Assembly (NCBI GenBank): GCA_937928045.1
Contig: CALFWO010000034.1
Coordinates: 1-64,000 of the forward strand
Length of the DNA stretch: 64,000 nt
Direction of reading: 5' to 3'
Origin: an uncultured Saprospiraceae bacterium
Lineage (GTDB): Bacteria > Bacteroidota > Bacteroidia > Chitinophagales > Saprospiraceae
Shown piece by piece: positions 3,622 to 56,757 of this stretch. Each line of letters opens with the position of its first letter. Positions within the stretch are counted from its first letter, which is position 1. Under the pieces are notes generated by a model. That model was not told the DNA's origin and did no database searches. It was given only the letters and a program-made list of their open reading frames with translations. A program made the translations under genes and the position numbers.

Positions 3622-4800
3622 TTAACTCCCGAAGGGGATATTATACAATCCATTTGGTCGGTAGTAAAGATAACCATATTGAAGATCAATATACAGGTTG
3701 AACCGTTTTAGAATGTCGCCTCCCATTACACTTAGGTGTTGACGCCCTAGAGCTCCTTCGAAAAAATTGATCGGAATATTCTTAAAGGAATCTTCACCCA
3801 GTTTGAACTGAGGTAAAATAGATCTTTTAGTCTTGATGACATTGTCATGCGAATCTTTTAATTCACTTTCGCTGATGGTCTCCAACAATTCTCCAAATTT
3901 ATTTTTCTCAACAAACTTATCGTCTAAAAGCAAGGTTCCACCATAACCAGAGTGAAGTAACACTGGATTCCTATAGGAATGATCATTGATAATATATTCC
4001 GTATTCAAGAACATCATATTTTGATTGAAAGTTATTTGTGCTTTCTGAAATGATTCATCAATTTCTGGAAGATAGGAGTGAATAATCATAAGATTTTTAT
4101 CAAAGTCCAACTCAATAACCTTGTCAGGGAAAAGATTTGGACCGAACTTTCCATCTGCCGTTGGGCCAGTATGTTTGTCAGACCAAATGGTCAGGTCGTT
4201 CCATTCAAAATTTTGAATTTTAAATTGATTTCCTTCACTATATTCTGTCGTGGCTTCGCCACCCCAAGTAATAGCCTTTTCAGATTTGTCAAAATTCTTA
4301 TTGCCTAGCTTAGTAATGGCTTCTTCTGTCAGACTAACTGATCCTTGTGCAGTATGAAACATCATTCTTAAGGAGTCTCCGTCATTTAGCGAGGATTGAA
4401 TGATAACATTGTTGGCTTTGGTAAGCGTAAATGGAATGGTATCATGGGTCAATGGCGTATCGGCCATTTTTACAAAGGAAATACCACTTTTGACTTGTGT
4501 CCAACAAGTATCTTTTTCATTTAAAACAATGGCAAATTTTTGTGTTTTCAAAGGATCGATTTCGAAAGAGAGGGAATCAGTATCAGAATAAAAAGTAATG
4601 ATTTTGGTTTGATTTAATTTATCCGCTACATAAACATCCAAAGGTAGCGAAGGATCAACTGTCCAATAATTTTGCTTTAAAACGTCCCCATCTTTTATAG
4701 AAAGTACCTCAGTTGTCGTTTGAAGAATAGGAAAAGTGGATTGAGCAATTGTAAAACCTTGATGGCCGAAAATGAATAAAAACATTAAGAACTTTGACAT
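3622..4800 (-). CDS. Exported bilobal retropepsin-like protein with both catalytic Asp changed to His
   Basis: A 392-residue protein with an N-terminal signal peptide (cleavage likely after Ala-Gln at about 20). Two lobes of the retropepsin-like (Asp_protease_2) fold can be recognised. In lobe one, MMFHTAQGSVSL (H149-T150-A151) occupies the usual F-D-T-G position and is followed by a DGKFGPNLF...IELDFDKNLMII segment. In lobe two, LLHSGYGGTLLL (H283-S284-G285) occupies the second D-S-G, followed by MGGDILKRFNLYIDL...LYYRPN. I checked the codons: both are CAT. Active aspartic peptidases need the Asp pair, so this is probably a pseudo-protease or a binding protein. It has no operon partner. Confidence 0.7.
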   Translation of the reverse strand: MSKFLMFLFIFGHQGFTIAQSTFPILQTTTEVLSIKDGDVLKQNYWTVDPSLPLDVYVADKLNQTKIITFYSDTDSLSFEIDPLKTQKFAIVLNEKDTCWTQVKSGISFVKMADTPLTHDTIPFTLTKANNVIIQSSLNDGDSLRMMFHTAQGSVSLTEEAITKLGNKNFDKSEKAITWGGEATTEYSEGNQFKIQNFEWNDLTIWSDKHTGPTADGKFGPNLFPDKVIELDFDKNLMIIHSYLPEIDESFQKAQITFNQNMMFLNTEYIINDHSYRNPVLLHSGYGGTLLLDDKFVEKNKFGELLETISESELKDSHDNVIKTKRSILPQFKLGEDSFKNIPINFFEGALGRQHLSVMGGDILKRFNLYIDLQYGYLYYRPNGLYNIPFGS

Positions 4801-5138
4801 AGCTTGATAGATTAAGTCGAATAAAAATCAAGCTAATCTTTATGAATAAAAAATTACAAACTTTAACACAAATAGCGGCTGTATTAACAAGCTATTAAGT
4901 ATTGATGTTGGATTCTAAGGGCTTTGTTAAGCCATTAACTACAACCTTGTTGAAACTTAGCTTATTAATCAAACTTGACTTGGTTAAAACCCAATAAAAA
5001 ATGGACTAATGCCAAATTGGTGATTAATATAAGTACCTTCGATCAACATTTGAATTTCGTCGGTTTCTACTAATACCCTAATAGTATAGGCTTGCATCTT
5101 GGAAAATGATCATTCATTAACAAAGAAAGCTTATAAGT
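4801..5138. other. Divergent intergenic region
   Basis: 338 bases between two divergently transcribed genes, so promoters for both should lie here. The only box-like sequence seen is TACCTTCG at 5034-5041 on the forward strand, a possible -7 element for the methyltransferase gene, with a TTG at 5017-5019 that is too close for the usual spacing. No RNA gene or small reading frame is evident. Confidence 0.3.
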
Positions 5139-6695
5139 ATGGGAGTCGATACATTTGAAATAGAATCAAAGAGACCATTTTCTGAAAGTTTAATTTGGCA
5201 ATTCAATCGTGATTTTTATCTGAACAATGGCATTGCTGCCTGGGGTAATGGCATAGTTCCACATAGTATGACGAGTAGTTCTAAAGTGGGAAAAACCTAT
5301 GCAGAACTCATTTTTGCATTGCTAAAGGATTTAGCTCATCAAGGGAACATTGATGAAGTGATTTACCTGTTAGAACTTGGCGCCGGTCATGGACGTTTGG
5401 CTTTTCATATTCTTCAACATCTAGAAAAGTTAATAGAATCGGTAGATCAAAAATTACCTCCTTATTGCTATGTTTTAAGTGATATCGTGGAAGAGAATTT
5501 GACTTTTTTTAGCCAACACCCGCAATTTGAAGTTTACATTGAAGAAGGCAAATTGGATGTCACTTATTTTGATGCCATCGAAAGTGACAAAATATATTTA
5601 AGAAATAAAAAGCAATCGATTCTTACTCAAGAATTGAATCAACCAATAATTACTATTGCTAATTACTTTTTTGATTCTATTCCTAATGAGTTACTGCATT
5701 TTGAAAACAGAATTGTTTCCTCTTGTTCAATTGCTATTAATTCTGAAGAGAATCCTAAAGATTTGGTTGGTGATGAATTGTTGAAAATCATGGATTTTTC
5801 TTATTTCGATATTGTTCAAAATGCGCCTTTTTACAAAGAATCCTTGTTAAATGAAATTGTAGAAGAGTATCGAAATTCGTTCGCCGATACTTATTTGTTT
5901 TTCCCAAAGAAAGGACTGGAATGTATTCAACATATTCAGAGCTTTTCGAAAGTTGGAATGGTTTTACTTTCAATGGATAAAGGCTTTCATGAATTGATGA
6001 GTTTGAGAGGAAAAAAAGAACCCGAAATTATTAAACATGGAAGTATCTCGCTTTGGGTAAATTATCACGCTCTCGGTGCTTATTGTTCTAAACAAGGAGG
6101 CTTGGCGTTATTCTCTACTAGTTCCAATTTTCATTTGGAAATTGGTTGTCTGATGTTCTTGAAGGATGCAGAACGTTATCGACATACTAATGCAGCATAT
6201 GAAGAATTTGTAAATAGCTTTGGACCAGATGATTTCAATAGTATGAAACAGCTGGCGTATACCAACGCAGCGAAATTGCAACTCAAAGAATTAATTGCAT
6301 TGTATCGATTGAGTAATTATGACTCAGGATTTTTTGTCAAGCTATTGCCGCGGTTAAAACAAGTCTCCAAAACCATTTCTTTTCAAGAAAGAAACCGTCT
6401 CGATCAAACAATGGCAGCAGTTTGGAAAATGTACTTCAATATTGACGAACAATTTGACCTGGCTTATGAAATCGGTGGATTGTATTACGACCTTGGATTC
6501 TATCCTGAAGCACTTAGATTCTTTGGTTTTTCAGTCGAAGCCTTTGGAGTAAAACCTGACATGTACTACAACAAAGCTTTGTGCTATTATCAATTGCATA
6601 AGGATGAACTTTTCTACGAGACTTTAAACGAAGCTAAACTTGCTTTTCCTGACTATGAGTTGTTTCAAAAGTTAGATAGCTTGGATATGAATTAG
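5139..6695 (+). CDS. SAM-dependent methyltransferase-like protein with C-terminal TPRs
   Basis: A 518-residue cytoplasmic protein. The N-terminal half carries a Rossmann methyltransferase motif I, LLELGAGHGRLAFHIL at about 78-93, and motif IIANYFFDSIPNELLHF at about 175-190. The latter resembles IANE(F/L)FDALP in the MidA/Methyltransf_28 family, which in mitochondria methylates an Arg of the complex I subunit NDUFS2. The C-terminal 100 residues form at least two TPR-like helical pairs (YDLGFYPEALRFFGFSVEAF, YNKALCYYQLHKDELFYETL). No signal peptide. The product is monocistronic. Methyltransferase fold is fairly sure; the substrate is unknown. Confidence 0.7.
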   Translation: MGVDTFEIESKRPFSESLIWQFNRDFYLNNGIAAWGNGIVPHSMTSSSKVGKTYAELIFALLKDLAHQGNIDEVIYLLELGAGHGRLAFHILQHLEKLIESVDQKLPPYCYVLSDIVEENLTFFSQHPQFEVYIEEGKLDVTYFDAIESDKIYLRNKKQSILTQELNQPIITIANYFFDSIPNELLHFENRIVSSCSIAINSEENPKDLVGDELLKIMDFSYFDIVQNAPFYKESLLNEIVEEYRNSFADTYLFFPKKGLECIQHIQSFSKVGMVLLSMDKGFHELMSLRGKKEPEIIKHGSISLWVNYHALGAYCSKQGGLALFSTSSNFHLEIGCLMFLKDAERYRHTNAAYEEFVNSFGPDDFNSMKQLAYTNAAKLQLKELIALYRLSNYDSGFFVKLLPRLKQVSKTISFQERNRLDQTMAAVWKMYFNIDEQFDLAYEIGGLYYDLGFYPEALRFFGFSVEAFGVKPDMYYNKALCYYQLHKDELFYETLNEAKLAFPDYELFQKLDSLDMN

Positions 6696-19987: not shown

Positions 19988-20010
19988 TTGATCTATTACA
20001 TCAGAAACGC

Positions 20011-20043
20011 AAAGACTGAAGCGGAACAACCGCCTCAGTCTTT
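20011..20043 (+). terminator. Intrinsic terminator after the outer-membrane protein gene
   Basis: Inverted repeat with a 14-base arm at 20011-20024, a five-base loop and the pairing arm at 20030-20043 (one A/C mismatch), followed by a T tract. It starts 24 bases after the stop codon. Confidence 0.85.
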
Positions 20044-20335
20044 TTATTTTTATCCTTTATTTGAAGCAAAAATAACTCTTAGCTAAACAAATGTGATGAT
20101 TGAGATGTGCAGACATTTTGAAATTCATTAAATGGAATTGGTAATATCGAAGCTTTTGAATTTAGGTAATCAAGCCAAGTAGATACTTTAAATAAGTAAA
20201 TCGAACTAGATAACTCTTTTCTTGCCATCAAATTATTATCATTAACTTTTATAATGATTAAAATCCAATAGAATTAGTGGTTGTAAGAACCCTTTTCGAC
20301 TACTGAACATTTTTTAATTTTTCTTACAATTTTTC

Positions 20336-20625
20336 TTATTTATCTTTTTTGTATTGAAATTTAGCATCTAAGGTTTCCAAAAATCCTTTTTCTTGTATTG
20401 ATGTCAGAGATGTTTTCTTCATTCTTTCTCTACTCATCACGGAAGCTTTTTGATATTGCGCTGTAAGGTCAGCTAAAGCTCGCGTGCATTTTAATCTCGT
20501 TTCTTTTTATGAAAAATAATATTTGAATGAAATCAGTCACGACTTGGTTTTGATCGAAAATTGCTATTGCATTGCTTGTATAAAGCTCTTGAATTATTTT
20601 GGCCGACACCAACTTTTCATTCTGT
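20336..20625 (-). pseudogene. Probable decayed small gene in a long intergenic region
   Basis: Two open stretches abut on the reverse strand in different frames. The upstream one (about 20625 to 20480) reads ...VSAKIIQELYTSNAIAIF and DFIQILFFIKRNE. The downstream one (about 20505 to 20336) reads RALADLTAQYQKASVMSRER and ends FLETLDAKFQYKKDK before a stop. The amino-acid composition is protein-like and helical, and a one-base frameshift near 20490 would join them into about 100 residues. No good start codon is present. I do not recognise the family, and chance cannot be excluded. The rest of the region from 20044 to 20749 shows nothing else. Confidence 0.35.
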
Positions 20626-20749
20626 TAGTTTAATTAAAAAAGAATCTAACGGTAACGTTTTTTTAAAATGCTTCACTTAGTAGTATAACCTCGGTTTTAC
20701 TTAACAAGTAAACTAGCATTTATTAAATTCTATTTAAAACCACTCCGGA

Positions 20750-22651
20750 ATGAAAAAGGATACCCTTCTTTTTACTAACGACATTAAGGCCGCAATAAAG
20801 GAAATTCAAAACATAGGCGGGCGCATAAGTCAAGAGTTCACTAACCATGTTTTTGTTGCCAATTTACCAGACTCAATTGATATAAAATCGTTAAGATTTT
20901 CCAGTACTAAACCTAAAAGTAAGTTGGATAGTAAGTCCGAACTTTTGTCAAAATCCTGGAACAATTTAGTTGATAAATCCAAAAATCGATCAATATCGAG
21001 GTCAATTTCGCAAACAGAAGGGCTTAAATGGGATGCAGAAGGATATTCAACACCTAATCATCCTGAAACATTGGATGATGCAGAACTAACTGATCATCAT
21101 CATAAATCTGCTGCTCCTCAAAGGTCTACAGGTACTCCAAGTAGTCTTTATATGACTGGATCTATTGCAGTGGGAATTGTAATTGTTTCGGGTAATACGG
21201 ATGCCTTACGCATAACAGAAGATGAACAAACCAAACTAATTCAAGAGATTCAAATGGGATTAGATTTTCTTGCAAACGCAGAGCCTAGAGCTAATATTAC
21301 ATTTAAGTATGATGTAAACATAATCGACATTGATGCGATACCAGGTTCTGTTTCTACTTTTGAATCTGCAGAAGCTCCTTGGAGAAACGCAGCATTAGGG
21401 CAGATGAGTTACGATGAATCGAGACAGGGATCAATAGATTATGTAAATGATCTTAAAGATTCTAAAAAAACGAATTGGGCTTATGTTGCTTATTTTACCA
21501 AATATCCATTGCATCATTTTGCCTACGCTGAATATGAAAAAACGACAATGTCTTTTTTTAATGATGGTTGGGGAGTAGATAATATCCATAAAATATTTGC
21601 CCACGAAACTTGTCATGTTTTTGGTGCAGCAGACGAATATGGTGATTGTAGTTGTAACTCTAGGCATGGATATTTAGCAATTCCAAATAGTAATTGTACC
21701 AGTTGTTCAGGACCTCAGGAAGTTTGTTTAATGAGTAGCAATAGCTTGAAGCTTTGCGAATGGACTAGAGGGCAATTGGGTTGGGATGAAAGCCTTTTTC
21801 CTCAAAAAGAACAGAAAATTGGAAACGGAATATTTACTATACAACAGAAAAGCACTCAAAGATATCTTGATGCTTTTGAATCAAAGAATAAAGATTTTGC
21901 TGTCGTCACGAGAAGAAAACAGAATAATGCTACTCAAAAATGGAACTTGAATTTGGTAGGCAAAGTATTCACGATCCAGCAAAAAAGCAGTGGAAGATTC
22001 TTAGATGCGTATTCTAGTGCAAATAGAGATTATAGTTGTGTTACAAGAACTGCTCAAAATAATGATACCCAAAGGTGGGTAATATTGCCATCATCAAATC
22101 ATTTAGGAACATATACTATTCAACAACTTTCTAACAATCGTTTTTTGGATGCTTATGAGACTTCATCTAATAGTTATTCTGCAAATACAAAAATAAACCA
22201 ACAAAACGATTCTCAAAAATGGAGATTATATCCAGTTGGAGTCAATACGTACAAGCTTGAACATTTAGTCAATGGTAGATTTCTGTCTGCTTATCAAAAT
22301 TCTTTAAATGACTATTCTACAATTACTCAAATTTCAGAAAATGATGATGCTCAACATTGGATATTAACGCCAATTGGTGGAGTTTATAATATCCAACAAA
22401 TGAGTAGTGGAAGATTATTAGATGCTTATGAAACTAGTGATCATGATTTCTCTGCAGTAACCAGGCAGTCCGAATTTTTGGATAATCAAAAATTTGTAAT
22501 CCTTCCTTCTGAAACTGGTGATTATTCAATTCAACAAATGAGTACTTCCAGGTTCTTGGATGCTTACACTACAACTGCTCGAGATCATGCAGTTAATACG
22601 AGTACGAGACAAAACGATAATACACAACGGTGGATATTAAAACGAATTTGA
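20750..22651 (+). CDS. Zinc metallopeptidase with six QxW beta-trefoil repeats
   Basis: A 633-residue protein. Residues 1-60 resemble a subtilisin-type propeptide/I9 fold (AIKEIQNIGGRISQEFTNHV). The peptidase domain (about 135-350) has HETCHVFGAADEYGD with H285, E286 and H289; D295 is the likely third zinc ligand, as in HExxHxxGxxD peptidases. It is followed by a Cys-rich stretch (CSCNSRHG, CTSCSGPQEVC, LCEW). Residues 360-633 are six repeats of about 45 residues with [FY]xIQQ.S..R[FLY]LDAY and a terminal QKW/QRW, the ricin-B-lectin QxW signature (repeat five has QKF), enough for two trefoils. There is no classical signal peptide, which is odd for such a protein. First gene of a four-gene forward run. 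Confidence 0.78.
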   Translation: MKKDTLLFTNDIKAAIKEIQNIGGRISQEFTNHVFVANLPDSIDIKSLRFSSTKPKSKLDSKSELLSKSWNNLVDKSKNRSISRSISQTEGLKWDAEGYSTPNHPETLDDAELTDHHHKSAAPQRSTGTPSSLYMTGSIAVGIVIVSGNTDALRITEDEQTKLIQEIQMGLDFLANAEPRANITFKYDVNIIDIDAIPGSVSTFESAEAPWRNAALGQMSYDESRQGSIDYVNDLKDSKKTNWAYVAYFTKYPLHHFAYAEYEKTTMSFFNDGWGVDNIHKIFAHETCHVFGAADEYGDCSCNSRHGYLAIPNSNCTSCSGPQEVCLMSSNSLKLCEWTRGQLGWDESLFPQKEQKIGNGIFTIQQKSTQRYLDAFESKNKDFAVVTRRKQNNATQKWNLNLVGKVFTIQQKSSGRFLDAYSSANRDYSCVTRTAQNNDTQRWVILPSSNHLGTYTIQQLSNNRFLDAYETSSNSYSANTKINQQNDSQKWRLYPVGVNTYKLEHLVNGRFLSAYQNSLNDYSTITQISENDDAQHWILTPIGGVYNIQQMSSGRLLDAYETSDHDFSAVTRQSEFLDNQKFVILPSETGDYSIQQMSTSRFLDAYTTTARDHAVNTSTRQNDNTQRWILKRI

Positions 22652-22724
22652 CGAGGATCAAATCTACACAAGGTGTTATCAGAGAACAACATGTATTTTT
22701 TAATCTTTTAAAATGTAAATTGAT

Positions 22725-23516
22725 ATGGCCAAAGTAAAAGCAAAAACAGCTTCGGCAAAAAAGGCTGCCCCAAAAATGGCAGCAACAAAGAAACCAAAAG
22801 CTGGGAGAAAAGCTGCAACTCGAACTAGAAAAAGAGGGCGACCTACCGCTAGTAAAGCTATCGCTCAGAATACGAATGCTGTTGATAATGTAAAAGTTCA
22901 AATGGCAATGAAAGCAGTTGATGCGGCATCGGCTGCATTGAAAAATCTAAAATCATCTGGTGTTTCAAAGGCGCCTTCAAAAGCACCAGATTTTGCCGCT
23001 GAAATAGGAGCCATTGATTTCAATAAGATGATAAGTGGGCCACTACAAGCAGCTGTTGATGCTCAAGTGGCATCCTCTTTAGCTTCAATTGAATTCATCA
23101 ATGCGGTCGGCTTTAAAGGAGAAGGTGATGATCGTGAATTGGTAATGGTCGATTTCTCGCATAAAAAGGTAGATGTCAATGATGATGGGGAAGCTGTTCC
23201 TTCCGAGATTTTTATAAAAGTTCCTTTACTGGCTATGGTTCAAGTACCTAGTTTAAGAATTGAACATGTAGTTATCGATTTTAATGTCAAGCTTAATTCT
23301 GTAGAAACTGCGAATACTTCTCAATCACTAGGAGTTGATGCTTCTGTGCAAGGCGGATGGGGACCTGTTAAATTTAAAGTTTCTGCAGCCTACAAAAGAT
23401 CATCCTCCAGAGGTATTAAGGTTGAACGAGAGTATGCGCTCAATGTAAATGTCAAAGCTGTTCAGGATGAAATGGCTCCAGGATTGGAGCGAATTTTAAA
23501 TATTCTTGCTGGATAG
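22725..23516 (+). CDS. DUF2589-like protein with histone/AT-hook-like N-terminus
   Basis: A 263-residue protein. Residues 1-50 are dominated by Lys and Ala and contain RTRKRGRPTASK, which carries the AT-hook core RGRP. From about 95 on it matches the pattern I associate with DUF2589: ISGPLQAAVDAQVASSLASI, INAVGFKG, VPLLAMVQVPSLRIEHVVID and FNVKLNSVET, ending in a beta-rich region and the short helix APGLERILNILAG. DUF2589 has no known function. It lies 73 bases after the metallopeptidase gene and 44 before the next. The basic tail suggests nucleic-acid or polyanion binding; this is inference. Confidence 0.7.
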   Translation: MAKVKAKTASAKKAAPKMAATKKPKAGRKAATRTRKRGRPTASKAIAQNTNAVDNVKVQMAMKAVDAASAALKNLKSSGVSKAPSKAPDFAAEIGAIDFNKMISGPLQAAVDAQVASSLASIEFINAVGFKGEGDDRELVMVDFSHKKVDVNDDGEAVPSEIFIKVPLLAMVQVPSLRIEHVVIDFNVKLNSVETANTSQSLGVDASVQGGWGPVKFKVSAAYKRSSSRGIKVEREYALNVNVKAVQDEMAPGLERILNILAG

Positions 23517-23560
23517 TCCGCATTAAATAATTTAATTGTAAACTTCTCAATTGTCAAATT

Positions 23561-24361
23561 ATGAATACCATTACTTTATCCGACTATCTAGGATATATTT
23601 TTAGCGAAATAGTTGAAGCCAGAGCAATAGCTGATAATCATTCAAAGGAGATAGCTGAGAAGTACTCTAAAGACGAGGTACTGAAAAGCTTTTCGGTACC
23701 TCGTTTCAAAATTCCAGAAATGAATCTGAATATTCCTGTTTTGGTTACCGGCGCAAAGTTAGAAAACACATTTAGATTTAAAATGACTGAGGACGCTTTC
23801 AAGAATATGATTACTGCTCAGCTTAACTATATAGTAAATTCTTTACGAAAGAAAAAATCTGATTTCACTAAAATATTAGATATTAAACCCATACCAATAA
23901 AGATTAGACCGGGCGTGGTCGTCCCAGTAAGTCCTAGAAAGGCTAAAGCAAATTCTAAAATTCAGAAAAGTGCAAGCATCATTAGTTCATTCTATAATCA
24001 GTTGAAAGCAAGTAGTGATGAGCAAACTATTGTTCAGATTTGTGAAATTCGTTTTGCTGAATTATTAAAGAAAACATTAGTAAATGAAAAGTTGGAACCT
24101 ATTTATAAAGCCAAATATCCGAACAGTGAACTTTATTTCTCTTCAGTAATAAAGATTATTGAAATTGTTGAGAATAACTATGTAATTGAAAAAGTAAAAG
24201 TAGATAATCTGCTGGTCAGTCCATTGACGAATATTGTGAAATCAGAAGGCGATGAAAATTCAATTTTTACCATAAATGCTAAAATCGTTGAGGATGGTGT
24301 ATTTATTAAAACAGTACAAGACGAGCAAGGCAATGAAAAAAAGGTAGTAGACTTTGAATAA
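23561..24361 (+). CDS. Unrecognised protein in the DUF2589 gene run
   Basis: A 266-residue protein without signal peptide or membrane segment. The N-terminal helix ITLSDYLGYIFSEIVEARAIAD is followed by a beta-rich stretch VPRFKIPEMNLNIPVLVTGAKLEN, reminiscent of the VPLLxxVxxPSL strand pattern in the DUF2589 neighbour, so the two may be distant relatives or partners. Pro/Ile-rich IKPIPIKIRPGVVVPVSPRK sits mid-protein, then a helical region and a beta-rich C-terminus. No family name can be given. The stop is six bases before the next start, indicating an operon. Confidence 0.6.
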   Translation: MNTITLSDYLGYIFSEIVEARAIADNHSKEIAEKYSKDEVLKSFSVPRFKIPEMNLNIPVLVTGAKLENTFRFKMTEDAFKNMITAQLNYIVNSLRKKKSDFTKILDIKPIPIKIRPGVVVPVSPRKAKANSKIQKSASIISSFYNQLKASSDEQTIVQICEIRFAELLKKTLVNEKLEPIYKAKYPNSELYFSSVIKIIEIVENNYVIEKVKVDNLLVSPLTNIVKSEGDENSIFTINAKIVEDGVFIKTVQDEQGNEKKVVDFE

Positions 24362-24367
24362 AATATT

Positions 24368-24955
24368 ATGTGGAAATTATATCATCATCAAATTCAGCAA
24401 ATTTCAGAATTGCAAAACTTGTTAATTGAAAGTTTATCGGCTTATCATCGAAAAGACTTTCATTACGTAAGTAAATTTGAAATATTAATTACAAAATTGA
24501 TTGACTGGACTAAATCTTCGAATCGCTCCGAGATCTTATCGAGAATTTTAATTATATCTAGTGAGTTTACCCATGCAATTCGTGGTCTAGATCCCCAGAA
24601 ATTGATTAAAATTACAACTGGAAGAAATGACTTCAAACGCATTTATTTTTTGAAGTCCGTTACTAGCGTAGAAGAAATACTTGCTAATGAAAAAAGTAAA
24701 ATACAATCAGCAATAGAAGAAGCTAAAAAGGATATCTCCACTTTGGTACTTTCGGCTATTCAATCTGGTAGTCTTGATATCACAACGCTAGCAAACAAGG
24801 ATCAAGGAGATGTACTTGCATTCTGGAAATCATTAAATGGAAGTGGTGATGTGATAGCGATTAAATCCAGAATATCGACTCGGGTAGGTCTAACCGATAT
24901 TCAATTAATAATTCTTGAGCTTTTTGCTAAAATTAGTGAAGGCCTGGCTGTTTAA
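24368..24955 (+). CDS. Unrecognised helical protein, last gene of the DUF2589 run
   Basis: A 195-residue cytoplasmic-looking protein, mostly helical (QISELQNLLIESLSAYH, EEILANEKSKIQSAIEEAKK), with a central basic patch and no known motif. It begins six bases after the previous gene and closes the unit; the next gene is convergent. Because the four genes 20750-24955 are so closely spaced in one direction, they probably act together, but no function can be assigned. Confidence 0.6.
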   Translation: MWKLYHHQIQQISELQNLLIESLSAYHRKDFHYVSKFEILITKLIDWTKSSNRSEILSRILIISSEFTHAIRGLDPQKLIKITTGRNDFKRIYFLKSVTSVEEILANEKSKIQSAIEEAKKDISTLVLSAIQSGSLDITTLANKDQGDVLAFWKSLNGSGDVIAIKSRISTRVGLTDIQLIILELFAKISEGLAV

Positions 24956-25039: not shown

Positions 25040-25981
25040 TTACGACATCTCCTTGATCAATGTCAATTTCTCCTTTTCCTTCTCCGCGGTCTTATGTGTA
25101 TTGATCGTTTTCTTGTGATCCAATGTATTCAAAAGTCGAACTACTTCGTCCATCATGGCTTCCATTAGATGAATCGTACTCGACAATTTTTTTCTTACTA
25201 TCCAATCATTGATCAAATGATTATTATAAGCTTTTATGAATAAATCAAATTTGATCGTATTCGTCGCTGTTTGAAGTCTTTTCGACTCATGAACATCTTC
25301 TAACTCTTCTTCAAATTTAATTAATTGAACTTTTAAGGATTGGAATTTAGCAACAGCGACGTCTACAACGCTTTTTTCTGTATGGTAATTAGGAACGTTT
25401 TCTTCATCTTGCCCCCAGTCTCTCATTTCTGCAGCTTTTTTTAAAAGCGCCGTAATTTCAGCAAGATTACGTTTACATTTTAATCCAATATCTTTGGCCT
25501 CAAACAGTTCTCGGTTAAATTTTACTAATTCATCAATTTCTTTATACACAATCAATAATTCAGCATTCTTTTGAGGACCATCTTTTTTTAAAGTTCTTTC
25601 TCGAAGTCGCAACAAACGCTCTAGGTTTTCTTCCTGGAGATCTCGGCCTGAGATTTTTTGATTCAAAATGTCTTTTTCGAAATTCAATGGAGTCAAAGAT
25701 TCTCTCGCATCTTTAAGCATCAAAACAGCGTGCAAATATTCTTGTTTTTCTATTTCTAATTGCTCCGCGTCATAGCCTAAGATGCTTTTGAAAAGTACTT
25801 TCCTTGACTTAGCTTCTAACACCAGAATGTCATTGTATTCAGACGCCACTTGTGCTTCGAATTTTCTAATAATTTCCTCTTGCTCTAAAATATTTCGGTG
25901 TATTGATATCAAATATTTCTCCGCTAAGATTATGGATTGCATTTCGTTAATAGCAGCAGTAATTTGATCATCTAATATCAT
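25040..25981 (-). CDS. Coiled-coil protein of unknown function
   Basis: A 313-residue protein, almost entirely charged helix with heptad-like spacing (IHRNILEQEEIIRKFEAQVA, LQEENLERLLRLRERTLKK, LKVQLIKFEEELEDVHESKR). No signal peptide, membrane segment or enzymatic motif. It is the last gene of a reverse operon, 15 bases behind maf, and convergent with the DUF2589 run. A structural or scaffolding role is likely. Confidence 0.65.
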   Translation of the reverse strand: MILDDQITAAINEMQSIILAEKYLISIHRNILEQEEIIRKFEAQVASEYNDILVLEAKSRKVLFKSILGYDAEQLEIEKQEYLHAVLMLKDARESLTPLNFEKDILNQKISGRDLQEENLERLLRLRERTLKKDGPQKNAELLIVYKEIDELVKFNRELFEAKDIGLKCKRNLAEITALLKKAAEMRDWGQDEENVPNYHTEKSVVDVAVAKFQSLKVQLIKFEEELEDVHESKRLQTATNTIKFDLFIKAYNNHLINDWIVRKKLSSTIHLMEAMMDEVVRLLNTLDHKKTINTHKTAEKEKEKLTLIKEMS

Positions 25982-28878: not shown

Positions 28879-31533
28879 ATGTCCGAATCATATAAATATC
28901 CAGAAGAAAAAAAGTTCAAGTTCAGAGAGCTTAAAGTCTATGCCTCCACAGAATGGCTTGCGGATAACAAAAAGAAGTATCGTCAAGTATTCGATCGCTT
29001 TGAATCCACCTATATTTATTCAGAATTATCTTTTTATAACAAACAGTTTGATAAGGAAGATTGGGAGGTAGACGTAGAGCTAAAATGCTACCGTTTAAAA
29101 AAAGGAAGAGAGGAAATCTGCAGTTTATCATTTGAATCTCGGAAAATTTCAAAGTATGACAACCTAGTTTACATCAGAGAAGGCTGGGGAAATAAAAGCG
29201 AAGGACAATTCTGGAAAAAAGGCACCTATTACTGGGAAGCGTGGATTGAAGGAGAAAAGGTGGCTACCAAGTATTTCTATGTGGAAGATGCTGGCAAAAG
29301 TATCGCCGCAGGCGAAAATAGCTATCTGGAAGTAAAGTCATTGAAGCTGTATGAAGGCCCTTATGATGATGTTAATGAAGACGATCGGAACTATTTTAAG
29401 AAATTTTCAAGTGAAGAAACACGATATATTTATGTAGAGATTCTGTTGAAAAACAAGTACCCTGCAAAGAGTTGGCAATGTGAATTGTTCACCAAGTTTT
29501 ATAACGATGCACGGGAACTGAAAGGTCAAGTGGTAAGACTTCATCGTGTTGAGAAAAAAGATGAATACATCAAGATCACCGCTGGTTGGGGATCCAATGT
29601 GAAAGGTTCATGGCGCAAGGACAGATACACCGCCGAACTTGTATTTATGGACAAATTATTGGCTGTAATTCCGTTTGAAGTTGGTGAAGCCTTTGAGGAA
29701 GGGATAGCTGGAGTCCTGTTGCCGGACAGACATTCTCCTATTGTATTGAGTCCTGAGGAAGATATGAATCAGACTTTTGAAGAGGTGATGGAAAAAATGG
29801 ATGACCTCATTGGACTTACATACATTAAGCAAAAAGTAAGAGATCATGCCAATTATATTAAGTTTTTACAGCTTAGGAAGGATAAAGGATTTGAAGAAAA
29901 AGAAAAGATAAATGTTCATTCAGTTTTCATTGGAAATCCGGGCACAGGAAAGACAACTGTAGCGGGAATGATGGGACGTTTGTACCACAAAATGGGCTTG
30001 CTTTCTAAAGGGCATGTTCACGAGGTAGATCGGGTGGATCTAGTTGGAGAATATATTGGACAAACAGCTCCAAAAGTTAAGGAAGCAATTGAAAAGGCAA
30101 GGGGAGGAGTCCTCTTTATTGACGAAGCCTATGCGCTGGCAAGGTCTAATGACGATTCGAAAGACTTTGGCCGAGAAGTCATTGAGATCTTAATGAAAGA
30201 AATGTCCAATGGACCTGGTGACATGGCGGTGATTGTCTGTGGTTATCCAAAGGAAATGAAGCATTTCTTGGATTCAAACCCTGGGTTGAAATCTAGATTT
30301 AAATTAAAATTCGAGTTTGATGATTACTTGCCTCAAGAATTGTCAAAGATTGCAAGATATTCTGCATTCTTGAAAGGTGTCAAGTTCACAAATGAAGGCT
30401 GGAAAAAAATTGATGATCTTATTATCGATGCTTTCAGGACTAGAGATCGAACTTTCGGTAATGCAAGGTTTGTATTTGATATTATCGAGCAAGCTAAAAT
30501 TCAATTAGGACTTCGCGTCATGCAGTCAGAAGATCCTCAATCACTAGAAAAAGAGGAAATCGAAATTATCCAAATGCCAGATGTGGATAAAATCAAACTT
30601 TCTACCAAACGTCCTTTGCCTCAAATCCCAGTGGATGAGGCTTTACTTTCAGAGTCCTTATCAGAATTAGAAACCTTGATTGGAATGGACAATATCAAGG
30701 TGCAAATCAGAGAATTGGTGGAATTGGTGCGGTACTATCGACTCATAGGAAAGGATGTACTCAACAACTTTTTTCTCCATACGGTCTTCTTCGGAAATCC
30801 GGGTACTGGAAAAACTACCGTGGCAAGAATCTTAACTAAAATATATAAAGCCTTGGGGGTTTTGGAACGAGGGCACATGATTGAGACCGATCGTCAAGGA
30901 CTCGTCGCTGGTTATGTTGGGCAAACTGCGATTAAGACGGCAGAAAAAATTGATGAAGCCACTGGTGGCGTATTGTTCATTGATGAAGCTTATGCTTTGA
31001 CTCAAACGGGTCGCCCAGGAGCCCATGGTGATTTCGGAAATGAAGCGATTCAAACTTTGCTTAAAAGAATGGAAGATGATCGTGGTCAATTCTTCGTATT
31101 CGTGGCAGGATACACTGACAACATGGAAACATTCCTAAAGGCAAATCCAGGCTTAAGTTCTAGATTCGATAAACTACTAAAGTTTGAAGACTACAAACCA
31201 TCTGAAATGATGGAAATTGCTGAACTAATGTTTTCAAATCAATCTTTCCATTTAACTCAAGAAGCAAGTGCTCATCTAGAACAATACTTTGAATTCATTT
31301 ATGAATATCGCGACAAATATTTTGGCAACGCCAGAACGGTTCGAACAATTGTTAATGATACAATCAAGGTTCAAAACTTAAGATTGGCTGCTTTATCTAT
31401 AGAGGCAAGAGAATCAGAAACGCTTAGTGAGATAACTTTAGAAGATGTTCAAAAATTCAAATTGAATAAGGAAGGAGATGCGTTCTTATTCAATAAAAAG
31501 ACTATTGGATTTAGGAATAGTTCAGGAGCTTAA
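28879..31533 (+). CDS. Tandem AAA+ ATPase of the CbbX/EccA/SpoVK class with duplicated N-domain
   Basis: An 884-residue protein. Residues about 10-140 and 150-275 are two related beta-rich domains sharing the patterns YIYxE, aromatic W-E/Q strands, a GWG followed by Trp, and YxxExxIxxEKVA-like ends. Then come two AAA+ modules with Walker A GNPGTGKTTVA at residues 352 and 639, sensor region DRVDLVGEYIGQTA / DRQGLVAGYVGQTA, and Walker B GGVLFIDEAYAL in both. Each has a FGNAR segment near its end. The AAA type is that of CbbX, EccA and SpoVK; no rubisco genes are present. Substrate unknown. Confidence 0.85.
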   Translation: MSESYKYPEEKKFKFRELKVYASTEWLADNKKKYRQVFDRFESTYIYSELSFYNKQFDKEDWEVDVELKCYRLKKGREEICSLSFESRKISKYDNLVYIREGWGNKSEGQFWKKGTYYWEAWIEGEKVATKYFYVEDAGKSIAAGENSYLEVKSLKLYEGPYDDVNEDDRNYFKKFSSEETRYIYVEILLKNKYPAKSWQCELFTKFYNDARELKGQVVRLHRVEKKDEYIKITAGWGSNVKGSWRKDRYTAELVFMDKLLAVIPFEVGEAFEEGIAGVLLPDRHSPIVLSPEEDMNQTFEEVMEKMDDLIGLTYIKQKVRDHANYIKFLQLRKDKGFEEKEKINVHSVFIGNPGTGKTTVAGMMGRLYHKMGLLSKGHVHEVDRVDLVGEYIGQTAPKVKEAIEKARGGVLFIDEAYALARSNDDSKDFGREVIEILMKEMSNGPGDMAVIVCGYPKEMKHFLDSNPGLKSRFKLKFEFDDYLPQELSKIARYSAFLKGVKFTNEGWKKIDDLIIDAFRTRDRTFGNARFVFDIIEQAKIQLGLRVMQSEDPQSLEKEEIEIIQMPDVDKIKLSTKRPLPQIPVDEALLSESLSELETLIGMDNIKVQIRELVELVRYYRLIGKDVLNNFFLHTVFFGNPGTGKTTVARILTKIYKALGVLERGHMIETDRQGLVAGYVGQTAIKTAEKIDEATGGVLFIDEAYALTQTGRPGAHGDFGNEAIQTLLKRMEDDRGQFFVFVAGYTDNMETFLKANPGLSSRFDKLLKFEDYKPSEMMEIAELMFSNQSFHLTQEASAHLEQYFEFIYEYRDKYFGNARTVRTIVNDTIKVQNLRLAALSIEARESETLSEITLEDVQKFKLNKEGDAFLFNKKTIGFRNSSGA

Positions 31534-47653: not shown

Positions 47654-50600
47654 TTATCGCATTAATGTAACATCGCCTGAATAGTCTTTAGTACTACCGT
47701 CAATGAAGGTAACTTTAGCATAGTAAACAAAGACTGCTGGATTTAAGAATTTATCTCCTAAAGTTCCATCCCAACCTCCAGAAGGATTTGCATCGTCGAA
47801 TAAATCTTGTCTGTATACAACTTCTCCCCAACGATCGACAACGATAAAGTTTTCAATTTTCTCAACTTTAGATATGTCGAAGAATGGTCTGAAGAAATCA
47901 TTAAAGCCATCTCCTCCAGGACTAAAGGCATTTGGAAAATATACTCCGAAGTCTTTTTCAACCTTCAATTCCAAAACATCCTCGGCTTGACAGCCGTCAG
48001 TAGTTATTACTGTAACTCCGATTCTTGTAGAAACTTCACCTATTAATTTCACTTCAGTACAAGGAGTATTTAAACATTCAACGGCATTTGCTGGTGACCA
48101 AATTACCTCTTGAATTTCTGAAGGATCAATATTGATAAATGTAGCTTGAATATTCGTAGAATCTCCCCATTCTAAAGTTACTTCATCATCTACAATAACT
48201 TCAGTTACTGGAGGATTCTCTATTTCTATGGTTTCAGTAAGCTCACATCCTAAGTCATCTATTGCGACCAATTCATAAGTACCTGGAGCCAATCCTGTTA
48301 CAACAGGAGCATTGCTATAAGCAATATCATTCAAGGTGTACTCAAAAGGCTGAGTTCCACCAGTCACAGACAAAACATTTATAAATCCATTTGCTTCATC
48401 TGCACATCTTGGATCTTCACTAACCAAGTCAAATGACACCGGTAAATTATCTGGCTCAAATACTGTAACAGTGAGTTGATCTTGACAAGAATTAAAGTTG
48501 TCTGTTATCACCACATCATATGTACCAGCGACATCAGTCATGATTGTTGATCCAGTTCCAAGTGATACACCGTTAGCATCGAACCACTCATAATCTAGGT
48601 CAGTTCCACCACTAGTACTTGAAGCGGTTAGCTCTAATGCTTGGTAAGAACAATCTAAATAGCCATCGTCTGCCGCAGCCTGAGGGAAAGCGGAATTGTC
48701 TGTTACAAGGACAGTATCCATACTTTCACATCCACTGCTTGATTCAATAGCCGTTAATATGTATTCCCCTTGTCCGCCAACTGTGATTGTCGCTTGATTT
48801 GAACTTCCGATAATATTTGGTCCTGTCCAGTTATAGCTTACGGTAGAACCAGTATCGATTGAAGTTCCGAATAATTGAATTTCTTCAAATTCACAATCTA
48901 TAAATCCATCATCACCGGCCAATGCACCAGGGAAAATATATTCATCAATAAGTTGAATGGTATCTCTGTCTTCACATCCAGTAACCGAATTTGTAACAAC
49001 AAGAATTACTTCACCAGTGAGGTCTGTGTTTTGGTTAGCTTCAAATGTTACTGTACATCCATCACCTACGTAAGTACCATCTAAAAACCATTCGGCCAAT
49101 TCATCTCCTGGTACGCATCCAGTGTAGGTTAAAACTGCTGTACTGACTACACAATTTAATGTCAATGCATTATCAGGACTGATTGAAGCCACTGGTAAAG
49201 ATGCTTCAGTTACAGATTGTACAGCAAGATTACTTGCACATCCATTTGAAAGATCATTGATCTCTAAAGTATAATCCCCAGGTACAGTTACAATTGGATT
49301 TTCCATATTCATATTGCCTGGCGTTATACCTGGACCTGACCACGTATATATAAGTGTTGTACTTGTAGATGTTGTGCTTCCTGTTAACTGAACCGCAAAA
49401 TTATTATTACAATCTAGTTCATCATTGGCTCCGACTATAGCATCTGGAGAATCTAAATCTGGAGTTATGATAACTTGGTCAGTAGCAAAGCAACCTGTCA
49501 AGGTATTGGTGACTAGCAATTCGTAAGTACCCGCCGCATCAACTGATGGCATTAACGTGGTGCCATTAACTATATTTCCAGGACCAGACCATGAATATTC
49601 TATTCCAAGACCAGTATCCGAACCGGCACCGTTAAGATCAATTGAAGTATCTAAACAAGCAAATTCATCGGTGGCTCCAGCTTCAGCAATTGGGTCTGCG
49701 GTAAGATCGATAACATTCACAGTTGTTCCATTATCACAGCCATTGTCAATATTTGTTATTAAAACACTATACGCACCAGGCTGATCCACCATTGGACTTT
49801 GCATGTTCATATTTCCAGCGTTTATCCCTGGTCCTGACCATTCAAAACTTGGATTCGAGGCATCAGTTGTTGCTGTAATTTGAACATTAGTAGTAAGACA
49901 AGTGAAATCTACATCCATTCCTGCAACTGCCGTCGGTGCATTTAAATCAGGATCAATGATAACATCATCAGAAACAGAACAGCCAGTAACGGTATTATTT
50001 ACTGTTAAGGTGAATGTACCTGAAGTATAAACAGTTGGAGTTAGGGTATTGAAATCATCAATCGTTCCTGGACCTGTCCAAATGTAAATCAAGTCCATTC
50101 CGGTGCTAGTACCAATTGTACCGTCTAATTGAATATTAGTATCTGAACAAGATAAAGTGGCAGATACTCCCGCTTCAGCTGTTATAGGAGCAGGTTCTGA
50201 TACATCAACTTGATCTCCTGAAGAAGTACAACCGTTGTCAGTATTTGTAACCACTAGGAAGTAAGCGCCAGGTTCAGTTACCGTTGGATTTTGAAGGGTA
50301 GCGTTAGCTGGAGTAATTCCAGGGCCAGTCCATTCATAGCTAAAGTTAGTTCCGTTAGCACCAGACCCATTCAAGGTTACTGCAGTTGTAATACAAGTCA
50401 AATCTTGATCAGATCCTGCGTCTGCTGTCGGGGATCCGGCATCTGGATCAATAGTCACAGTACTTGTCGCGAAACATCCAGTAGTTGTTTCAGTTACAGT
50501 CAAAGTAAAATCACCAGCCACATTAATAGTTGGAGTCAATGTATTTCCATCGACAATTGTTCCAGGGCCAGTCCATAAATACGCTAGAGTGGAGCTTACT

Positions 50601-53600
50601 GTAGTAGTACTACCCGAAAGTTGTAAACTTGGATTCGCACAAGTCAATACATTTGTTGTTCCCGCATCTGCAGTTGGATCTTGTGCTTGAGTTACTACAA
50701 CTTCAACTCCAGCTGAACTACAACCATTGGTATCATCTGTTACAATCAAAAAGTAACTTCCAGTTTCAGAAACAACAGGGTTTGGATCATTAGAAACAAA
50801 GCTATTAGGTCCTGTCCAAGAGAAAGTACTTACTGGAGCAGTACTTGAACCAGAAAGCGCCATCATAGGGTTGTCACATGTTAACAATACGTCTGGTCCA
50901 ACCATAGCCGTTGGCGCATTTGAATCAGAATTAATGATAACATCGTCAGATGAAGAACATCCTGTCGCAGTATTGGTGACTAAAATAGTGTATGTTCCAG
51001 CAGCATCCACAGTTGGATTCAGCGTTGTTTCGTCAGTTATGTTACCCGGTCCAGTCCATAGATAAGATATTGTAAGACCCGTTTCGGATCCAGTTCCATC
51101 TAATGTTAGCCCGTTCGTCGAACAAGCATAGGTTCCAGTATTTCCAGCTTCTGAAACTGGGTCTAAAGAATCAAAGACATCTACTGAAACTGGAGAGGAT
51201 TCACAGCCATTACCTTGATTCGTTACTATTAAGGTATAAGTTCCAGGCAATGAAACCATTGGATTTATCTCATTAATATTTGTTGGAGTAATACCAGGGC
51301 CGGCCCATTCATATAGTAGGTTAGTACCATTCATTGCACTTCCTGATAGCGTAACTATTGGGTCGTTACAAGTTATGGTTTGATCACTACCGGCATTTGC
51401 TGTTGGTGCTCCACTATCTGGATTTACATCCACAGTGCTCGTAGCACTACAAGTAGTGACCGTATTTGTTACTGTCAAAGTATAAGTTCCTAATGCATCA
51501 ACTGTTGGAGTTAATGTGTTCCCATCGATAATTGTTGAACCTATTGGACCAGACCATGAATAATCAAACATTCCTCCGGAACTACTATTTCCGGCATCAA
51601 GCTGAACGGAAGTAGCAATACAACTAAGTAATGCATCAGCACCAGCATTAGCTGTTGGGAAATCGTTGACCTCAATATTAATAGTTCCACTTTGTGGACA
51701 ACTATTCGCATCAGTATAAGCATAAGTAAGAATTACTGGGCCAACTCCAGCAATTGCCGGGTCAAATAGGCCAGTTGCAGAAATTCCACTTCCACTCCAA
51801 GTTCCTCCTGATGGTAAAGCAGTAAATTGCTCAGTACCAGAATCCAAACAGAATTGTGACCCGTCTCCTTGTATTGAAGGAGGATTATTCACACAGTCAT
51901 TAGCAGAACATATTCCAGATCCCGGAGCAGAGTCTCCACAAAGATTTCCATTGGAAAGTGCTATGATAAATATCTCAACTTCATCATTCGGACTCAATCC
52001 TGTAATTACAGGTGGCATCACATTGGATGGTCCTTGAATGGCACCACTGTTAATGGTCCAAGTATAAGAAAAGTCAGTTGCAGAAGGATGAGAAATGGTA
52101 AACCCAACTTGATCCAATCCTGTATTATTTAAATCGCACTGTACTGTAGGCGCTTCTAAAGATTGATCTGCTGTAACATTGAAACAGGCCTCGGCTCCAT
52201 TTCCACAATCATTGTAAGCCAATACACAAACTTGACCACCTAAGACCCCATTCCAGTTTACAGTAATCGATGTGGTATTTTGGCCTGCGTCAATAGTAGC
52301 TCCAGCTGGAACTGTCCAAGTATATCCAGTTGAATTTGTAACAGGATTTATTGAATAATTTGCTGCAGTTTCTGTTTCACAAATCTGATCATCGATGTTA
52401 TCTATTGTCGGCACACCAGGAACATCTTCAATGGTCAAATCAAAGCACATTTGAGGGCCATCTCCACATGCATTAGAAGGAGTTACACAAACTGGATAGA
52501 CTCCAGTTGTTAAAGAACCGGCATTAAATCCTACTGTTGATGAATTCAATCCAGTTACCATTGTAACGCCCGCCGGTAAATCCCATGTGTAACCTGTTGC
52601 TCCGTTCGCAGTCGCTGAATAACTTAGTCCTGTTGCTCCGGCACATTCTTCAGCATTGTTGAGCTGAGTAGGCATTAATGGAACTAATAAAGGCTCTATT
52701 GTAAAACACTCTTGGCCCGCATTACCACAATCATTAAAAGGAGTTACACAAATATCTCCTATAGAAAAAATACCAAGGTCTACAGTTATTTCATTTGTTC
52801 CATCTCCAGAAACTATAGTAACATTAGCAGGTACCGTCCATGTGTAACCAGTGGCTCCGTTTGGAACACCAATACTGTAAGTCACTCCATTTGTGTTTTG
52901 ACAAAGTACATCGGTTCCTGAGATAGGACCCGGATTAGCTGGTACTTGGTTTAATACAACTGGTAGACATGCCGGTGCACTAGATCCACAATCATTATCT
53001 GCAGTCACACAAACATCTCCATTTGTTGTACCCCAGCTAACTGTAATTGAAGTAGTTCCTTGACCGTCAGTTATTGTACCATTTGGAACACTCCAAGTAT
53101 AACCAGTAGCACCCGTAACATCCGCAATGGTATACACGACTCCAGTTTCGTTTTGACAAGCATCGGGACCTGAAGGTAAGGCTGGCGCATTAGGTGGAGT
53201 AGCAAAGGTAATAGTAAGACAAGCTGGTAAGCTGGTTCCGCAATCGGATGTTGCAGTTACGCAAATTTCGCCTCCTGTTCCTGTTCCCCAATCAACTGTT
53301 ACCGAAGTTCCAGATCCTGTTACTGTTCCATTAGTCGCTGTCCAGTTATAACTTGTAGCTCCACTAACCGGATCAATACTGTATCCAACTCCAACCGCAT
53401 TTTGACATGGAGTCAAAAGTCCAGCTAGACCTGCTGGTGGAGAAGAAGGACCATCAACTGCAACGGCCTGACAAATTTGAGGACCATCTCCACAATTATT
53501 TGAAGCCGAAACACAAACATCTCCTGCCATGGCTCCGTTCCAATCAACAGTAACACAGGTCGTTCCATCTCCAGCTGTAATAATTACTCCTGTTGGAAAA

Positions 53601-56600
53601 GTCCAATTATATGTATCCGCCGAGGCAACATCATCTACGCAATAAATAACACCAGTACTATTTTCACAAACATCTGGATCGAAAGTACTAAATGTTGGAG
53701 CTGCTGGAACTGGGTTAACAATGATATCCATACATTCTTGAGCAGCACATCCGGCATCTGAAACAAAGTCATAACAAACATTGAATGTTCCCGCTGCAGA
53801 AGGTGTAAAGACCCCGTCGATTGTAACATTATTTCCAGACCATTCTCCTGGATCTCCAGGTTGATCTTGTATCGCTGTGAGTACAACTTCCGGTTCTCCT
53901 TGACAAAGAGGACCTACCGGGAATAATACGATATTCGCAGGTGGGTGTACAATAACATCCAGTGATGATTCTCCTGTACATCCGTTAGCATCTTGTAAAG
54001 TCACATAATAAGTACCGGTCATAGTTGCCTGTACAAAAGGAATAGACGGAGATGCTCCAGAAGGTAATTCCCAGTTATATATCCAGCCAGGACCACCAAT
54101 ATCTGCAAATGCAGTTAAAACAATTGGAAACTGAGGATCACTTTCACAAATTTCTGTGATGTCAGGATTAGCAACTACGGTAACCACAAGGTTTGGGTTG
54201 GCTTCGACTAAAATTTCTGTTTCGCCGGTACAGTTATTTCCATCAGTAACTGTTAATTGATAAGCCGTTGTAAATGTTGGCATTATGGTAGTAGAGATAC
54301 CAACATCACCAGTACTCCATTCAAAAGTATATGGCGGAATACCACCAGTTGCAGAACCAAACAAAGTTGATTCAGCTCCAGAACAAACTGCTCCAGTTGG
54401 ATTATTTATTTCGGGCACTACGCTAGGTAAAACAGTAATTACTAAATCGGAAGGAAATCCAAGGCATCCTCCTATGGTTCGGGGTATTATGGTGTATGTA
54501 ACCTGCTGAGGTGAATTTGTAGTGTTTTCAAGAATAGTAGATAAAACATTTCCACATCCACCACTACATGGCGATGCTCCATTTACACCAGCAGGTGCAG
54601 ATACAGTCCATGTGTATGATATATCTCCAGGATTTGGTGCTGGTTGAATGAAGTCATCCAAAAATATATCCAATTGTTGATCTGAACATGCCGTCAAGGG
54701 TAATGGAAGCATAGTTGGAGGTTCACAACAGTTTAAGGAATAGTTCGCAAACCATGGAACGTCCAATTGACATCCTGTTTGAACCCATCCTCCAGTTTCT
54801 CCGTCTCCGAAAGTTCTTATTTGGATCCCACAATTAATATTGTCAGGAGAGTCATCGCATTCGGGGTACATCTTGGTTGTAAGTGTTACACAAAATGTAA
54901 AAGGCTGTTGATTTCCACATCCCATTGGAACTCCCCAAGAACAATTTGGATCTATGTTTTGATCCCCTGGTGCGCACCAAGCCGGTACTGGGTTAGGAGC
55001 TACTCCAGTGACAAACCAACCGGCTCCTACTGGATCACCAAAGCCAAACGGTCCTCCAGCAACATCGTTATAAGTAACAACTCCATCGTCGTACCAATTC
55101 CAGGTTGCTCCACCAGGAAGAGTAACGTTAACAGGGGAACCATCAGGATTGAAAGATATATCATCCCAACAATCTCCAAATTCTGGAACCAAACCATGTA
55201 ACCATTGACAATTGTTACTCGCGGAAGAATAATTTACTGTTATACAAATTTCAACCTCTTCACCTGCTTGGAATGGTCCGGAAGGAGGAGAGCCCATACT
55301 CGTATTTACAACATCAAATGAAGTAGCGGCATTACAGTTTGTTCCACCAGTTGGAACTGAAGTAAGACATAAGTTAAAATCTCCATCTTGTCCTCCTACA
55401 GATCCTACAGCTATATAGTAGGTGAGCGCAGCACTTACATCAACTTGAATTAAGTTTGCAGAACCACCTGTACCTTGAGTACAATCAATTGGCGCAAATC
55501 CACCGGCGCAATCCCCTTGGAATACAGCTATTTGTGGTAAATCAAATTGAGGACTATTTAAATCAATATTTACAAAATCGGTATTTCCATCAGGCGTAAA
55601 AGTGTACCAGACAGTAGGTACAGCACTGAAATCAAAACAACCAGCACCGCCAGTTGCATCTGGAGCAGTTCCTGTGTTACATCCGGTCAAACAATTATTC
55701 TGACCAGCAGGAGCAGAAATATCTGCTGCATTTGGACAATCATCAATAGCAGCACATGCTGGTGGAGGACCTGTTTCTGTCAAACATAAATCAAAAATCC
55801 CAGCGTCCGCGTCAGCAGTACTGACTACAACAAAATAGGTTGCGCCAGGAGTTAATCCACTAGCTGTAAACATTCCACCAGGACCACAGTATTGATCAGC
55901 AATTGTAAATCCACTCGTACAATCTGTGGCAAATGAACCTACCATCACACTCATATCTCCAGTAACTGTCTGACCACCAATCACTACATCTAAGGCATTA
56001 CTGCCTGGACCAATAGTAGCTGAATACCAAACTGAAACTTCCCCTTGACCTGGGCAATTAGGATTTGACCAATCTCCAGTCGCATTTATGGTTGTACCTG
56101 TGGCACACGAACCATCTACAGGTGCGGTTTCAGGAGAACAAGGATCATCATTTGGCGGTGCTGGCGGATCAACGGGATTATCTAAACAAATATTAAATGG
56201 ACCTTCAACTCCTAAAGATGAGGTGACAATAATATAATATGTGGCCCCAACCATTAATACGTTGTTTCCAGTAATCGCTATGTTTCCACAGTCAATTTGC
56301 TGAGCGGATGCGAAATCACAAGGTGCGCCTACAAACTGAGCGAGTGTAATTTCACCCGAGCCACCTAATCCGGTCATAGAAATATCATAATCTGAGCCTT
56401 GCGCTTCAAAACTGTACCAAACGTTTGGTGCAGCGTTTCCCCCAGCGACGCAATTACCATTACCTACATCTGATGTGGTAAGTGGATCGATAAAGCCATC
56501 AACACACCCATCTACAGGTATAGTGGCGGCATTATTACAGTCGTCGTTAGCAGGTTGTGCAAAAATAGGTGTTGTAGAAAATAGACCTAAGAAAAAAAGT

Positions 56601-56632: not shown

Positions 56633-56757
56633 AGGTCTTTCCAGAGTAATCCTTTCTCTCATTTTGTTCGTAGCGTTTAGTTCTATAAATTCAGTTAAGA
56701 CACTATGAATGTGGTGAGCTTCATTCAGTTATGCCTGGTTAGTGTAATGTCCTGAGT

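Follow-up and report, generated by a model that had tools for sequence, protein, structure and literature searches.

Do the four adjacent, same-strand genes of this locus, which encode a metallopeptidase with lectin repeats, a DUF2589-type protein and two proteins outside known families (Table 1), constitute a single undescribed system, or is the unit smaller than the gene row suggests? The genes lie on contig CALFWO010000034.1 of an uncultured Saprospiraceae bacterium (GCA_937928045.1), whose positions 1-64,000 were analyzed and are referred to below as the window.

The locus and its three-gene core

An earlier note on this DNA had read all four genes as one multi-part system and had given their coordinates, strand and intergenic gaps (73, 44 and 6 bases) correctly. 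The flanks that it described were also confirmed: 762 bases upstream of ORF1 (19988-20749; 760 in the note) are free of long open reading frames, and a convergent gene (25040-25981, minus strand) lies downstream of ORF4. The product of this downstream gene has homologues in a genome of the same genus, G001 (48% and 27% identity), and it is the only gene that the G001 contig has in common with the window locus. Promoter and terminator evidence around the ORF1-ORF2 gap spoke neither for nor against co-transcription. Elsewhere in the window, 28879-31533 (plus strand) encodes a protein of 884 residues that combines two AAA domains with AAA_lid_6 (CbbX/SpoVK type), and 47654-56662 (minus strand) encodes a 3002-residue protein, judged from its sequence to be secreted, to contain repeats and to have a C-terminus of the gliding-motility type.

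Table 1. Genes and sub-features of the locus (window positions)
Feature	Position	Strand	Description
ORF1	20750..22651	+	633 aa; no signal; metallopeptidase plus C-terminal beta-trefoil lectin repeats
ORF1, N-terminal module, pro-domain-like	20750..20950	+	about residues 1-67; found by itself in proteins of 92-161 aa in L104-L107
ORF1, metallopeptidase domain	21149..21790	+	about residues 134-347; weak M6-type profile match only
ORF1, zinc motif HETCHVFGAADE	21602-21637	+	residue 285
ORF1, six ricin-B/QxW repeats	21818..22648	+	two trefoils by count
ORF2	22725..23516	+	263 aa; DUF2589 protein (PF11655); core subunit 1
ORF2, N-terminal extension	22725..22985	+	residues 1-87; Lys/Ala-rich, contains KRGRP; proposed protease-sensitive segment
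ORF2, DUF2589 domain	23019..23510	+	long helix plus four strands
ORF3	23561..24361	+	266 aa; core subunit 2; outside known families
ORF4	24368..24955	+	195 aa; core subunit 3; outside known families

Sequence searches bore out the earlier assignments of the last three genes. ORF2 belongs to the DUF2589 family, matching PF11655 with 97 bits (E 1.6e-27) against a cut-off of 23, and neither ORF3 nor ORF4 has a credible match in Pfam or NCBIfam. No match to the module proteins was found among PDB sequences. In the AlphaFold2 model of ORF2, which is of low confidence (pLDDT 67, pTM 0.40), a long helix leads into four strands and a short helix, and a basic tail is unstructured; that of ORF3 (pLDDT 81.5) has a long helix, a long strand, a helical insert and four further strands. 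At E <= 0.001 neither model matched a PDB fold, and the ORF3 model matched no viral model. Profile comparison places the helix and strand motifs of ORF3 and DUF2589 in register with a probability of 13%; the match is not significant, and ORF3 is possibly a distant DUF2589 relative, though a paralogy is not claimed.

The window ORF3 used alone as a query over the genome collection found no match, and a profile, built from the first four ORF3 sequences, was required. With this profile, the DUF2589-ORF3-ORF4 core was detected in 16 of 396 Bacteroidota genomes; in named genomes it occurs at 46 loci, mostly in Chryseobacterium, the other taxa being Kaistella, Petrimonas/Proteiniphilum, Bacteroidales, Saprospiraceae and Flavilitoribacter. 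In almost every complete locus the three genes keep this order on a single strand; at L098 they are rearranged. Two ORF3 relatives were found among 80 relatives of the window genome, each between a DUF2589 gene and an ORF4 relative; within the Saprospiraceae the module is rare, any DUF2589 match at all being present in 14 of 398 genomes. In Chryseobacterium, the unit occupies one fixed site with the same housekeeping genes on either side (some 35-39 loci), and purifying selection acts on all four of its genes (median dN/dS 0.07-0.11). Because their homologues keep gene order in many genomes and are constrained in this way in Chryseobacterium, ORF2, ORF3 and ORF4 are real coding genes.

Core loci fall into two clades, one with a protease and one without. 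Flanking genes vary between Chryseobacterium, Petrimonas/Bacteroidales and Saprospiraceae, and the linkage of core and protease therefore reflects more than shared location. These results answer the first part of the question. ORF2-ORF3-ORF4 is a real, conserved and undescribed module, a conclusion that is well supported, and the earlier view that the locus holds an undescribed system is upheld for genes 2-4. As a unit of four genes it is not: the last three are routinely found apart from the metallopeptidase, the very outcome that the note had named as refuting it. Novelty is claimed for the module, and its function may yet prove to be of a known sort.

Protease partners and the DUF2589 extension

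In one scan, a subtilisin (PF00082) directly followed ORF4 in 43 of 43 complete protease-clade loci, and two further Saprospiraceae (G580 and G791) carry the core together with a subtilisin. In these loci ORF3 and ORF4 overlap by one base (median), and ORF4 is separated from the subtilisin gene by a median of 11 bases. Each of the 40 protease rows tested has intact catalytic motifs, and in the 12 rows inspected the N-terminal 35 residues are not hydrophobic. The catalytic domain matches PDB subtilisins, intracellular ones among them, and the approximately 130 residues N-terminal to it have no PDB match. The proposal that a protease belongs to the unit thus holds in one respect, as a protease without a secretion signal is present throughout the clade, and fails in another: the conserved partner is not a metallopeptidase-trefoil protein, since the relatives carry a subtilisin. 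In some units, genes of 70-80 residues without a known family lie directly 3' of the subtilisin (L040:11566-11808, L078:11547-11759); they possibly encode stand-alone pro-region or inhibitor proteins, and comparison did not support kinship with the N-terminal domain of ORF1.

ORF1 is a protein of different ancestry. It contains one HExxHxxGxxDE motif, which agrees with the HExxHxxGxxD pattern of M6/M64-type peptidases, and its match to the M6 metalloprotease domain TIGR03296 (E 1e-4, 22.2 bits) falls below the cut-off of 110.8. The C-terminal part is a ricin-type lectin by its match to RicinB_lectin_2 (PF14200; E 8.9e-29, 100.5 bits against a cut-off of 25.6). Six trefoil repeats are present, as had been noted, but the QxW signature attributed to all six occurs in five (residues 396, 441, 489, 535 and 626), the fifth repeat having QKF at 580. 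Hydrophobic N-termini and membrane segments are absent from all four window proteins, and ORF1 accordingly lacks a signal peptide, as stated earlier. Two homologues of ORF1 were found: one at L104, 36% identical over residues 10-362, and one in G562, split across two contig ends (L197/L198). Neither has lectin repeats, and no core genes lie beside either of them in the DNA examined. The suggested recognition of glycans or a surface has its sole basis in the lectin repeats, which are missing from both of these relatives and from all core relatives. The concern with an unknown delivery route may not apply; nothing points to export, and a protease acting on its substrate in the cytoplasm fits at least equally.

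ORF1 and the subtilisin are alike in having an N-terminal region ahead of the catalytic domain. Comparison gave no support for a single family of such regions; at best they could be called analogues. Copies of the ORF1 N-terminal domain also occur alone. At L104 (G392) an ORF1-family metallopeptidase gene (3796-5292) is followed by one for a 161-residue copy of its N-terminal region with no protease (5337-5822), a candidate dedicated inhibitor. Free-standing copies of 92-109 residues (L105:7659-7988, L106:7466-7744, L107:7953-8231) each lie close to genes for a conserved small protein, a TPR-containing protein and a response regulator.

Among protease-linked cores, the window stands apart. In a tree of concatenated core proteins it falls on the side of all subtilisin-linked cores with branch support of 100/100, where it is the deepest and longest row and its exact position is unsure; its ORF4 has the R-G-x-(D/N)-P motif of that clade. 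Nevertheless, no S8 protease directly follows ORF4 in the window, and no subtilisin of the clade type was found in the locus or the genome, the best matches having about 30% identity in the catalytic part only. The DUF2589 protein differs as well. Its N-terminal extension measures 86 aa in the window, against 100-128 aa in the subtilisin-linked cores and at most 5 aa in cores without a protease. A profile of the extensions of subtilisin-linked cores recovers the held-out G580 and G791 sequences at 1e-25 and 1e-29, while the score of the window extension lies among those of its shuffled versions; window and relatives align again from (D)FAAE onward. At the level of sequence, the window extension is unrelated to the conserved extension of about 105 residues whose place it has taken. 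The sole core with a different protease thus has a different extension as well. Protease and extension were exchanged together in the window, which is the pattern expected of a protease-substrate pair; on the tree this amounts to one gain and one replacement, which is not statistical proof. ORF1 would be the exchanged protease partner of the window core, a pairing seen in one genome, the window's, among those sampled.

A proposed protease-gated assembly

The data presented above have led us to propose, tentatively, a model of a protease-gated three-subunit assembly in which the DUF2589 extension is the switch and ORF1 the protease of the window. The products of ORF2-ORF4 would form a cytoplasmic assembly with DUF2589-type proteins as its basis, which in the window's clade would be controlled by a dedicated protease, itself probably an inactive precursor without an export signal. 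This protease would be the subtilisin encoded 3' of ORF4 in the relatives and the metalloprotease-lectin encoded 5' of the core in the window. An N-terminal extension on the DUF2589 subunit would keep the assembly inactive until the protease, by cutting off this extension or docking on it, turned the assembly on. Precedents exist in the bacterial gasdermins for protease-gated pairs (PMC9079055) and in nuclease-protease pairs for a partner protease that unmasks a proenzyme (PMC12799240). The low confidence of the DUF2589 model leaves the activation step without structural support, and it counts against ORF1 as a substitute for the subtilisin that its gene lies 5' of the core, across a 73-base gap, and not 3' of it.

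The same gap is consistent with ORF1 being an unrelated upstream gene and with a window core from which the subtilisin has simply disappeared and which now functions, or is decaying, as three genes. ORF1 homologues without a core nearby (L104 and L197/L198), together with the single occurrence of ORF1 beside a core, point in this direction as well. We consider this explanation unlikely. ORF1 is adjacent to the core on the same strand, has the general make-up of the subtilisin (an N-terminal domain, a protease and no signal peptide), and comes with a replaced DUF2589 extension in the one genome in which the protease is also replaced; the reading frames of ORF2, ORF3 and ORF4 are all intact.

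The wider DUF2589 family bears on the assembly itself. Members of the family are also present in Vibrio, Burkholderia, Streptomyces, a deltaproteobacterium and Archaeoglobus. DUF2589-type genes nearly always come in adjacent sets of 2-4, which points to hetero-oligomeric products. Among the sets are DUF-ORF3-ORF4, DUF-ORF3-DUF, and DUF-DUF with a third gene, whose product is a divergent DUF2589 protein (profile probability 98%). On Vibrio and deltaproteobacterial plasmids, the DUF-DUF pair is accompanied by a protein of 91-94 residues. In the Vibrio plasmids pFP31 and pVDT1 (L108 and L182), where this partner has 91 residues, genes annotated as TcdA/TcdB-like are found several kilobases away; at L084 (2622-6818), a protease-less core is followed by a gene for a large SpvB/TcB-like protein (Tc toxin complex type), as judged by eye. 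The superfamily might constitute a widespread, unrecognized hetero-oligomeric assembly of bacteria and archaea with exchangeable enzyme partners, which in one Bacteroidota clade became protease-switched through removal of an extension. This generalization is more doubtful than the model for the clade itself, and what has been observed is a joint swap of protease and extension at least once, in the window.

The neighbors of protease-less cores and DUF2589 sets, which are often other enzymes, raise a different explanation, namely that the core serves to load, transport or release hydrolases lacking a signal, the protease being one kind of cargo. Such neighbors include a CHAP amidase near L088/L090, a patatin phospholipase and M15 peptidase near L089/L092 (domain matches for L089), peptidoglycan-binding proteins at L094 and on the deltaproteobacterial plasmid (L109), a peptidoglycan-binding, muramidase-like protein at L110 and the SpvB/TcB-like protein at L084. 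These neighbors are a lead for a carrier role, with distances that vary: between them and the core or set lie 10 to 700 bases, or several genes, and they are inconstant within the clade, and the cores L087, L091 and L140 have no enzyme neighbor. Furthermore, the core has no membrane part, and a contractile delivery machine is not required, since no sheath gene was found in G000 (the window genome), G791 or G357 by a search with the phage sheath family PF04984. As a general account of the module, a carrier function seems to us rather improbable.

Under the protease-gated model, the paired exchange predicts the target of the protease and the position of the cut, and its confirmation would give DUF2589 a first function. 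Irrespective of the model, a domain without a role and two nameless families can now be treated as one delimited multi-gene unit that lends itself to testing and has a known enzyme alongside, and the unit is present in culturable species of Chryseobacterium.

Relation to known systems

Comparison with defense systems was largely negative. PADLOC run on the four window proteins returned a single weak match, of ORF4 to Csn2 (E 0.0035, 15 bits), and a reading of the locus as a defense island was set aside on this result. An origin in phages or contractile injection systems was likewise rejected. No PHROGs family matched at a meaningful score, the window genome gave no match to the phage sheath family PF04984, and among viral contigs the ORF3 protein of L110 found nothing and the DUF2589 protein of L110 a single contig, on which an integrase-like gene is present as well. 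A gasdermin-type cell-death or anti-phage system, in which the protease would be the trigger and the DUF2589 assembly would do the killing, is very improbable: the pairing of a protease with a partner bearing a removable-looking extension recalls gasdermin operons and nuclease-protease pairs (PMC9079055, PMC12799240), and patatin-like enzymes lie near some cores, but PADLOC offers at most the Csn2-like match, the ORF2 and ORF3 models have no pore-former fold in the PDB, and the fixed site in Chryseobacterium is unlike a mobile defense island.

Some likenesses to described systems remain. DUF2589 genes form a neighboring set in Archaeoglobus fulgidus (AF0414-AF0417, PF11655), where these "DUF2589 related" genes are reported to be upregulated with lactate (PMC3949148); for that set neither ORF3 or ORF4 nor a protease partner is described. 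In our literature search DUF2589 was mentioned in a single paper, and PF11655 was named nowhere. With the bacterial gasdermin-protease operons the module shares one or more small cytoplasmic partners encoded alongside a dedicated protease and the proposed gating through a removable segment. It differs from them in having no gasdermin-related sequence or fold (Pfam and PADLOC gave no match, nor did the ORF2 and ORF3 models), in the N-terminal position of the segment, in its two further conserved subunits and in its fixed chromosomal site in Chryseobacterium. With the nuclease-protease pairs (PMC12799240) it shares the proposed unmasking of an inactive partner by a protease, and there too one partner is served by proteases from different families (trypsin-like, caspase); unlike these pairs, the module has no nuclease, has a subtilisin or a metalloprotease, and has no recognized defense genes. 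In outline the layout of the module resembles that of these operons and pairs, but the defining proteins are absent and it is not filed with them. For the protease itself, the nearest comparison is with the intracellular subtilisins (PDB 7y6m and 2x8j), which are likewise cytoplasmic and without a signal peptide and whose catalytic domain aligns with that of the module's subtilisin (profile positions 117-414 with 7y6m); the latter is set apart by its different N-terminal 130 residues and by being encoded together with a DUF2589 core.
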